NCBI RefSeq assembly: GCF_001047375.1
Contig: NZ_LFVU01000024.1
Coordinates: 1-64,000, forward strand
Source: Clostridium cylindrosporum DSM 605
Lineage (GTDB): Bacteria; Bacillota; Clostridia; Clostridiales; Caloramatoraceae
Direction: 5' to 3'
Length of the DNA: 64,000 nucleotides
Under the pieces are notes generated by a model. That model had not been told where the DNA came from. It saw nothing but the letters and a program-made list of their open reading frames with translations, and did not search any database. Below are positions 12,935 to 44,839 of the stretch, piece by piece. The number at the start of each line of letters is the position of its first letter. Within the stretch, counting starts at the first letter, position 1. Made by a program: the position numbers and the translations under genes.

Positions 12935-12963
12935 AAAAAAAGCACTGATTAATCAGTGCTTTT
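12935..12963 (-). terminator. Terminator of the tRNA-Met/fMet/Leu cluster
   Basis: Perfect palindrome (AAAGCACTGATT / AATCAGTGCTTT, 12938-12962) followed on the minus strand by a long T run, one base past tRNA-Met. Confidence 0.92.
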
Positions 12964-13040
12964 TGGTGGCGGCGGAGGGAGTCGAACCCCCGACCCTTCG
13001 GGTATGAACCGAATGCTCTGGCCAGCTGAGCTACGCAGCC
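12964..13040 (-). tRNA. tRNA-Met(CAT), elongator, copy 2
   Basis: Identical over all 77 bases to the tRNA at 445-521, including the U4-C69 acceptor mismatch. It is the last gene of a three-tRNA transcription unit. Confidence 0.95.
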
Positions 13041-13052
13041 ACGTTATAAAGT

Positions 13053-21573: not shown

Positions 21574-21694
21574 TTCTAAAAATTACCACACTCACTTCTT
21601 ACAATCTATTCCATTCATATATACACAATTATAATAAACTAAAAACTCTCCTTCTTCCAGTATACTTTCTTTATCTAGTAATAGCCTCTTTGCC

Positions 21695-21886
21695 AGTAGT
21701 AGAGCATTTAGCTAAAACAATAGAATCAAAAACTAGAGATTCTTATCTGCTAAAATTGGGCTCCCCTTAGAGATAAGTCGTGAAGCGCAGCGATTTTTCC
21801 AGACTTAGCTGTTAGGGTAGTCCAATTTACGTAGATTAGAATCTCTGTTTGAAGATTTCGTCGTTTTAGTTAAATTCTCTACTACT
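21695..21886. repeat. Palindromic structured element, copy 1 (192 bp)
   Basis: Long imperfect inverted repeat filling most of the 387-base gap between two converging genes. The ends are AGTAGTAGAG and CTCTACTACT (10 bp perfect). Inner arms then pair in blocks: ATTTA, CTAAAAC, AGAGATTCTNATCT, AAATTGG, and near the tip AAGTC with GACTT. The tip holds GAAGCGCAGCG. It shares ends, length and offset-conserved motifs with the element at 43495-43687. No ORF, transposase or target duplication is visible. It could be a structured RNA or a non-autonomous palindromic element. Confidence 0.75.
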
Positions 21887-21904
21887 GCAACACACCAAAC
21901 CCAC

Positions 21905-21941
21905 ATAAAAAAGGTCACCTACAATTATGTAAGTAACCTTT
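21905..21941 (-). terminator. Terminator of prsA
   Basis: Thirteen-bp stem with G-U pairs (21911-21923 with 21928-21940; AAGGTTACTTACA / TGTAGGTGACCTT) followed by TTTTTTATG on the minus strand. Confidence 0.88.
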
Positions 21942-42772: not shown

Positions 42773-43348
42773 TTAACCACATTGTTTACCATCAAAGAAT
42801 CTATTTACATCATTATTTTTATTATCCTTGAAATTTACCTCTGGATAGACAATGTTAGTATAGATATATAAAAAATATTCTTCCTTAGATATATTTTGAG
42901 TTATCCACTTACCATCATTTGTTGACTTAACACTAAAAGTATTAGCTTTAAGCCCCTTATTATAACCATACACAGCAACAAAACTATCCTCTGTGCCATC
43001 ATTTATAAAGTTTAGTACTGCTCCATATAATGGTTTGCTCTCTCCTTGTCTAGCTCCATAAGCTCCTTTATAAAAAGTGCCATTTAGTAATTCTTCAAAG
43101 CATTGTAAATACAATTCATCTTTTTTATTCTTTGGAGTACTAAGTATAATTCTATAATTTCGTCCTTTATATGAAAAATTCTTATCTTCCTTTATGCTAA
43201 TAGGTTGTTGATATGTTTTTTCAAGATATTTATTTATATTAGAGTGCCATATTAAATTACTTCTAAAAAAAGCAATTGTAAGCATAATAAATAAAAATAA
43301 TATAGCGATTAAGACAGAATGCTTCTTATTACTTACACCTTTATTCAT
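42773..43348 (-). CDS. Exported or membrane-anchored protein, unknown function
   Basis: A 191-residue protein with a basic N tail and a single hydrophobic helix (about 11-30), then a soluble outward-facing domain of mixed alpha/beta character (about 50-190). It contains no lipobox; the only Cys residues are in the middle and at the C terminus (KQCG). GGTGATTAA precedes the ATG. The gene stands between two palindromic structures (42633-42695 and 43495-43687). I recognise no family. Confidence 0.75.
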   Translation of the reverse strand: MNKGVSNKKHSVLIAILFLFIMLTIAFFRSNLIWHSNINKYLEKTYQQPISIKEDKNFSYKGRNYRIILSTPKNKKDELYLQCFEELLNGTFYKGAYGARQGESKPLYGAVLNFINDGTEDSFVAVYGYNKGLKANTFSVKSTNDGKWITQNISKEEYFLYIYTNIVYPEVNFKDNKNNDVNRFFDGKQCG

Positions 43349-43494
43349 TTAATCACCTCTCCCTTAAGAGTTTTTATTGATTCATAAAATAAAACTATTG
43401 TGTATTAATATAAATATAGCATCAAGCAATCATACATATCTTTTAAAAATTCTTTCTCTCTACAACTATGCTATATAAGATAAGTATCACTGCA

Positions 43495-43687
43495 AGTAGT
43501 GTAGCCTCCAGTTAAACCAATAGAGGCAATCGGTAGAAATTCTTATCTCCATAAATGTCATTAGCCTTAGTAAAGAAGCATGTTTGAGCCTTTAGGCGAG
43601 TTTGCGCTGCACTTAGGCTAATGGCATTTATGGGGATTAGAAGTTCTTCGGATTGATCTCGCTGGTTTATCTGGAGGCTACACTACT
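43495..43687. repeat. Palindromic structured element, copy 2 (193 bp)
   Basis: Perfect 17-bp terminal inverted repeat AGTAGTGTAGCCTCCAG / CTGGAGGCTACACTACT, then TAAACCA blocks, a partly paired zone, an 18-base inner stem with one mismatch (CATAAATGTCATTAGCCT) and a small tip hairpin GCC-TTTA-GGC. Pairing continues outward (TAAGATAAGT, 43476-43485, with 43696-43705) up to the base before the helicase stop codon. It is related to copy 1 at 21695-21886. As part of the helicase 3' UTR it might act in termination or RNA stability. Confidence 0.78.
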
Positions 43688-43705
43688 GCAAAAGCACCTA
43701 TCTTA

Positions 43706-44839
43706 CTAATTTAACTTCCCATGACTTAAATTCTTTTTCTCTATGTTTATATTAAATTCTCTCTCATATATTCTAATAGCTGCCATTTCCTTAGATGTAA
43801 CTAATGAAATAGTCTTACCTGTGGCTCCTGCTCTAGCTGTTCTTCCTGCTCTATGTAGATATTCACTAGCATTTGTTGGAAAGTCTAGGTTTATTACATG
43901 TGTTATATCCTGTATATCTAGACCTCTAGCAGATACGTCTGATGATACTAGAACCTTAATCTTTCCACTTCTAAAGCTTTCTATAGCCTTTTGTCTTTGC
44001 TCCTTAGTAACCTTTTTATGGATACTTAAAGAAGGGATACTATGATAGTTTAGCTTTTCTGTTGCAAGATCTACTTCATATCCTCTATTTACAAATACTA
44101 ATGCTTTTTTCGGTTCTACTGCTGAAATTAACTTTCTTAGTGTTTCAACCTTATCCCTAGGATCAACTTCAATATACATATGCTTAATATTAGGATTAAG
44201 TGCTGCTTTCTTCTCGTTTTTTATAATTTCAGGCTCTTTCATTAATTCTCTTGCTGTAAATAATACCTTAGGGCTTATTGTAGCTGAGAATACTAAAAGA
44301 CATCTATCTCTCATAGTACACTTAATTATATCCTTTACGGTACCAGAGTTTGTGTTATCAAGTAGATTATCCCCTTCATCAATAACTATTGTTTTTATTG
44401 TATGTGCAGTTATCTTCTTTTTCTTCATTAAATCTAAGGCTCTACCTGGAGTTGCAACAATTATATGTGGTTTTATTTCCTTAAGCTTTTTTATTTGCTT
44501 CTCAATATTAACATCACCAATTATAGGTAATGAAGTTATAGGTAGATTCCCGTTACTTGCTAAAAGCTTTGCCTGGGCTTCTATTTGCATAACAAGTTCA
44601 TGGGTTGGAGCAAGCACTAATACTTGCATTTCTCTTTTTTCACTATTAACTTTTTGAAAAATAGGGCATAAAAATGCAAGTGTTTTCCCACTACCTGTGT
44701 AGCTCTCTGCTATTACATCTTTATTTTCTAATATTTTTTCAATAGTTAAGTGTTGAATTTCTGTTGGTTCTGTAATTCCTTGTTTTTCTAGTGCATCTAC
44801 TATATTGGAATCTAAACCAAGTTCTATAAATGACTTCAT
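43706..44839 (-). CDS. DEAD-box-family ATP-dependent RNA helicase (DEGD variant)
   Basis: A 377-residue RNA helicase core without long tails. Motifs: FIELGLDSNIVDALEKQGI and the Q motif PTEIQ, Walker A AESYTGSGKT, PTHELVMQ (Ia), TPGR (Ib), Walker B VIDEGD, SAT (III), and HRAGRTARAG (VI). Motif II reads DEGD instead of DEAD; the catalytic D-E and last D are kept, so activity is likely. Probably aids ribosome assembly or mRNA turnover, perhaps in the cold. The stop codon abuts the palindromic element at 43476-43705. Confidence 0.93.
   Translation of the reverse strand: MKSFIELGLDSNIVDALEKQGITEPTEIQHLTIEKILENKDVIAESYTGSGKTLAFLCPIFQKVNSEKREMQVLVLAPTHELVMQIEAQAKLLASNGNLPITSLPIIGDVNIEKQIKKLKEIKPHIIVATPGRALDLMKKKKITAHTIKTIVIDEGDNLLDNTNSGTVKDIIKCTMRDRCLLVFSATISPKVLFTARELMKEPEIIKNEKKAALNPNIKHMYIEVDPRDKVETLRKLISAVEPKKALVFVNRGYEVDLATEKLNYHSIPSLSIHKKVTKEQRQKAIESFRSGKIKVLVSSDVSARGLDIQDITHVINLDFPTNASEYLHRAGRTARAGATGKTISLVTSKEMAAIRIYEREFNINIEKKNLSHGKLN

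Follow-up and report, generated by a model that had tools for sequence, protein, structure and literature searches.

Beside the stop codon of a DEAD-box helicase gene in Clostridium cylindrosporum lies a long hairpin that is probably a resident member of a family of dispersed, mobile palindromic repeats of Clostridia. These repeats fold strongly, sit at gene 3' ends in C. cylindrosporum and several relatives, and are probably closest in function to an oversized REP/ERIC-type repeat. What we observed for the family as a whole is that its copies are numerous, that their structure is conserved through compensatory changes, that one strand is preferred, that relatives move, and that unrelated genes have the repeat at their stop codons. 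A literature search limited to open papers turned up no description of this clostridial repeat family, and a widespread repeat family with a conserved folded core has apparently gone undescribed in the Clostridia.

The copy lies in the window, the 64,000-nucleotide stretch of C. cylindrosporum DSM 605 DNA that we analyzed. Aligned with 36 other C. cylindrosporum copies, the element extends over 43471..43710 (+), the plus strand being the better-folding one. Within it, the fold named in the earlier note (43476-43705) is one long continuous hairpin that includes the outer pairs: the perfect 17-bp ends described there are present as a left arm (AGTAGTGTAGCCTCCAG, 43495..43511, +) and its perfect inverted copy on the right (43671..43687, -), and the TAAGATA/TATCTTA pairs said to extend these arms outward do form. 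The 17-mer itself is confined to the helicase-side copy. Folded as minus-strand RNA, 43476-43705 has a minimum free energy of -109.6 kcal/mol (z -14.7; 0 of 200 shuffles were equally stable), and as plus-strand DNA it reaches a z of -12.4; the palindrome is far above chance level. Its conserved core (43512..43669, +) scores 158.6 bits (E 5.5e-35) against our covariance model R1, which includes this core by construction. Rfam gave nothing above gathering score at the helicase-side element or at the loci of ten relatives, and a known RNA family was rejected for lack of such a match; no DNA similarity pointed to a plasmid or phage origin. No terminator-like site of the intrinsic kind (a GC-rich hairpin followed by a U-run) was called at the element on either strand.

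The helicase gene is a minus-strand open reading frame (43706..44839, 377 aa) with PF00270 and PF00271 above cut-off; its best NCBIfam match, CshA, falls below cut-off. The claim that the fold ends exactly at the helicase stop is right for the hairpin, since 43476-43705 directly adjoins the TAG at 43708-43706, but not for the family-aligned element, whose end overlaps the stop codon and places it 3 nt inside a degenerate terminal repeat (+3 relative to the element boundary). The next minus-strand gene (42773..43348, 191 aa) is an open reading frame with no family match, and a consensus scan agreed with the earlier note that no ordinary terminator lies between it and the helicase stop. The further proposal, that the hairpin is a helicase-specific 3' UTR substrate through which an RNA helicase regulates its own mRNA, takes its appeal from the hairpin adjoining the stop codon of just such a gene, and we give it next to no probability: some 40 copies stand beside unrelated genes, no second helicase or helicase relative occurs among the neighbors of the 37 aligned copies (the helicase itself aside), and among the relatives sampled the only clear orthologue (G010, 53% identity) has no such element. 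Counting against it, too, are the better folding, with G:U tolerated, of the strand antisense to the helicase mRNA and the mobility of the family in other genomes. Helicase autoregulation by the element is unsupported. Elsewhere in the window, two identical 81-nt stretches (444-524 and 12963-13043), each with a tRNA gene, lie about 12.5 kb apart.

Within the C. cylindrosporum genome, a DNA search returned 24 matches, and R1 (a model of the conserved core, built from 21 copies) located about 40 distinct places. One of these is a second family member in the window, of approximate extent 21671..21908 (+; core 21712-21868), a diverged relative that was recovered with the covariance model and that immediately follows the T-run in the terminator of a convergent gene. 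The copies have the build of a MITE: short (about 235 bp), non-coding, bounded by terminal inverted repeats (TTATGTAGG/CCTACATAA) and present about 40 times per C. cylindrosporum genome. They are alike in motifs rather than in overall sequence, sharing the TTATGTAGG ends, CATTGCAAGTAGTG, ATAGAG..CTAGA.ATTCTTATC on one side and TTAGAA..TCT..GTCTCGTCG on the other, and their apical loop is one of two main types. The distribution of the copies is uneven: one contig, C4 (214 kb, only 8% of the assembly), holds 17 of the approximately 40. Seven pairs of copies are arranged head to head (C4:64506/64875, C4:80549/81020, C4:196527/197217, C4:206475/206951, C26:20332/20702, C26:135357/136854 and C1:72284/72614), reminiscent of the two-ended units of Clostridium sp. 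KNHs214 described below.

The stems differ freely from copy to copy yet remain paired. Across 69 consensus pairs, 95% of cells are paired and both sides have changed in 42 of the pairs; stem covariation is 0.493, whereas shuffling gives 0.17 and sliding the partners no more than 0.11. Simple arm-to-arm copying, as opposed to selection, could account for part of this covariation, but the mismatched internal loops kept from genus to genus speak against it as the sole cause. The two strands are not equivalent: the plus strand gives the more stable fold in 33 of 37 C. cylindrosporum copies, and where a pair is predicted on both strands, G:U is more frequent than A:C (83 to 37; Wilcoxon p 4e-4). 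The strand favored by both measures is thus antisense to the helicase mRNA. This asymmetry, together with the loops kept across genera, could reflect a multi-copy small RNA gene on the plus strand, convergent with the neighboring gene and with its structure selected as RNA. We consider that quite unlikely: no conserved promoter was found upstream and none was called at the helicase-side copy, copies elsewhere behave as mobile DNA, and selection as single-stranded DNA would yield an asymmetry of the same sign, so that strand bias is no proof of RNA.

The position at stop codons is a rule in C. cylindrosporum and several of its relatives. Of 37 C. cylindrosporum copies, 28 have a convergent gene on their 3' side, and for 21 of the 37 the stop of that gene falls within 13 nt of the element's 3' end; the 5' end has such a stop in 1/37, and randomly chosen intergenic sites have one in 6.7% of cases (p about 1e-15). 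Copies so placed lie just downstream of the stop codon, as REPs do. Of the suggestion in the earlier note, the 3' UTR part fits this placement, which is far above chance, and the helicase-specific part fails. Five or six more copies lie directly after the T-run of the convergent gene's terminator. In KNHs214, a stop codon is found at or near 37 of 50 element ends, and 30 of these 37 sit at one offset to within one base. The stops at these ends (29 TAA, 7 TAG, 1 TGA) are used much as in other long open reading frames of the same loci (132:44:11), so the stop appears to be the gene's own; moreover, of 10 neighboring genes tested, 7 had a family-model match that extends to the C-terminal end of the model or close to it, and these 7 therefore appear complete. 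In other species, mostly Clostridium, 29 of 55 copies have a stop no more than 45 nt from the 3' end of the core, versus 8 of 55 on the 5' side. Repeat starts in KNHs214 keep one fixed offset from the TAA, TAG or TGA of apparently intact genes, and those in C. cylindrosporum lie either at stops or right behind terminator T-runs.

Relatives of the repeat are mobile. R1 detects members in further genera within the family-level group to which C. cylindrosporum belongs, and a motif scan of species genomes located them in Clostridium, Hathewaya, Fonticella, Hungatella, Blautia, uncultured Lachnospiraceae and other Clostridia. The copies of Fonticella tunisiensis have terminal repeats AAnnCGTTGTGCTAG and are flanked by a copy-specific target duplication of 5-6 bp (121/132 matches; 0 of 20000 permutations as good), and the same genome carries a 1158-bp insertion sequence of the IS982 family that has its ends in common with the repeat copies and an AATTTA duplication. 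The palindromes of KNHs214 stand in inverted orientation at both ends of units of 0.9-3.1 kb, and many copies at different sites are 93-99% identical. Since the stop-codon rule does not hold for the Fonticella copies, the species that demonstrate mobility and those that demonstrate stop-codon position are partly different. No target duplication was detectable in the C. cylindrosporum copies, and none was seen by eye in those of KNHs214. With neither a duplication nor a mobilizing enzyme found in C. cylindrosporum, mobility is established for relatives only, and the C. cylindrosporum copies look old.

Several candidate mobilizers were considered. IS982 has no match in the C. cylindrosporum genome and none above cut-off in KNHs214, and was rejected on these grounds as the mobilizer in C. 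cylindrosporum. Mobilization by a RAYT, as for REPs, is likewise unsupported: of the four Y1 matches in C. cylindrosporum, the top two are interrupted by internal stops and the remaining pair are pieces of a single locus, no Y1 protein of the 300-aa size class was matched there, and in related genomes an element lies near only 2 of 14 loci that encode 300-aa Y1 proteins, one of them weak. Four repeat-carrying species (G009, G017, G018 and G019; loci L246-L259) do encode several Y1 transposase-domain proteins per genome, about 300 aa long and RAYT-like. An IS4-family transposase in three KNHs214 units (L141, L204 and L121) is unlikely to be the autonomous form, as its gene orientation differs among them and other units hold an unrelated transposase-like remnant; the IS4-family genes are more likely passengers. 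The IS4 and other family names in these units come from reading the translations, and one stop-masked frame profile search gave no match. The interior of another unit (L197:3258-6326) holds apparent passenger genes that read in translation as acetyltransferase-, methyltransferase- and kinase-like.

DNA carries no mark of the reading frame, so such precise placement at stop codons, if it arose at insertion, would point to targeting at the level of RNA or the ribosome. The element may thus aim its insertion at stop codons, for instance by joining to mRNA 3' ends or through reverse transcription primed there, though we think this unlikely. Selection acting after the fact is doubtful too, if slightly less so: copies would land widely and be retained only as the 3' ends of mRNAs that have no terminator of their own, or as separators of convergent genes, which would make the repeat a domesticated 3'-end-forming element. 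This agrees with the 21 of 37 copies that have no terminator between stop and element and with some copies that span the space between two convergent genes; the element, however, has no U-run for transcription termination, and the recent KNHs214 copies already share their single offset, a precision that selection for a mere 3' UTR hairpin would not need. Selection after random insertion may account for old copies but fits recent ones poorly. It is very improbable that the palindrome is an attC-like recombination site, with gene and palindrome together making up a cassette of an integron-like system. A long imperfect palindrome at a stop codon, folding better on the strand opposite the gene, speaks for such a site, but the copies are solitary and lie beside resident genes, no cassette arrays were seen at the loci examined, inspection of the alignments by eye revealed no attC boxes, and in KNHs214 it is the repeats that are repeated and not the genes.

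Taking the helicase-side hairpin as a mobile repeat of the REP/ERIC kind, we suggest that it arrived by transposition at the end of the helicase gene, with the element's own 3' end placed at the stop codon of this convergent gene, and that it is now an old, fixed copy. Given how far above chance the stop-codon position is, the helicase transcript would be expected to continue into the hairpin if it does not stop beforehand, giving an mRNA with a giant hairpin abutting its stop codon. By analogy with the REPs of Escherichia coli, such a hairpin should hinder terminating ribosomes, protect or define the mRNA 3' end, or both, and any effect on the helicase would be a by-product of where the repeat lies rather than control by the helicase. 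If the hairpins do act like REPs, translation termination and mRNA 3' ends would be affected for dozens of genes per genome. The near-exact register also raises a testable question, namely how a mobile element finds the ends of reading frames.

The clostridial family shares features with several known systems. ERIC and YPAL are interspersed palindromic repeats comparable to it. Repeats of the 100-400 bp class to which bcr1 belongs occur in tens of copies per genome and are presumed mobile, and the bcr elements have TTTAT motifs and occur only in the B. cereus group (PMC6542083). The clostridial family, by contrast, crosses genera and keeps register with stop codons (ERIC, YPAL and bcr1 were compared by description, not by sequence). 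Like MITEs of the IS982 family, the Fonticella copies have ends and target duplication in common with an IS982 insertion sequence; unlike them, C. cylindrosporum has no IS982 and different ends, and the folded core is absent from the sequenced Fonticella insertion sequence copy, as judged by length and gene layout. The MRSC-65-2 motif, a mobile/repeat sequence candidate, likewise consists of one long stem that covaries, occurs dozens of times per genome and is presumed mobile, but it carries a UYCCGG repeat, and no stop-codon rule was seen in its description (PMC11109978). The REPs of E. coli are high-copy palindromes of 20-40 bp (PMC3733652), many of them immediately downstream of stop codons, where those within 15 nt stall ribosomes and lower translation (PMC12306157). 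The clostridial repeat differs from these RAYT-associated REP/BIME elements in its size of about 235 bp, in its covarying stems and conserved internal loops, and in that no link to a RAYT was found for it; it resembles them in being a high-copy palindrome just after stop codons and, given how REPs so placed hinder ribosomes, it is best likened in function to a REP whose body is far bigger.
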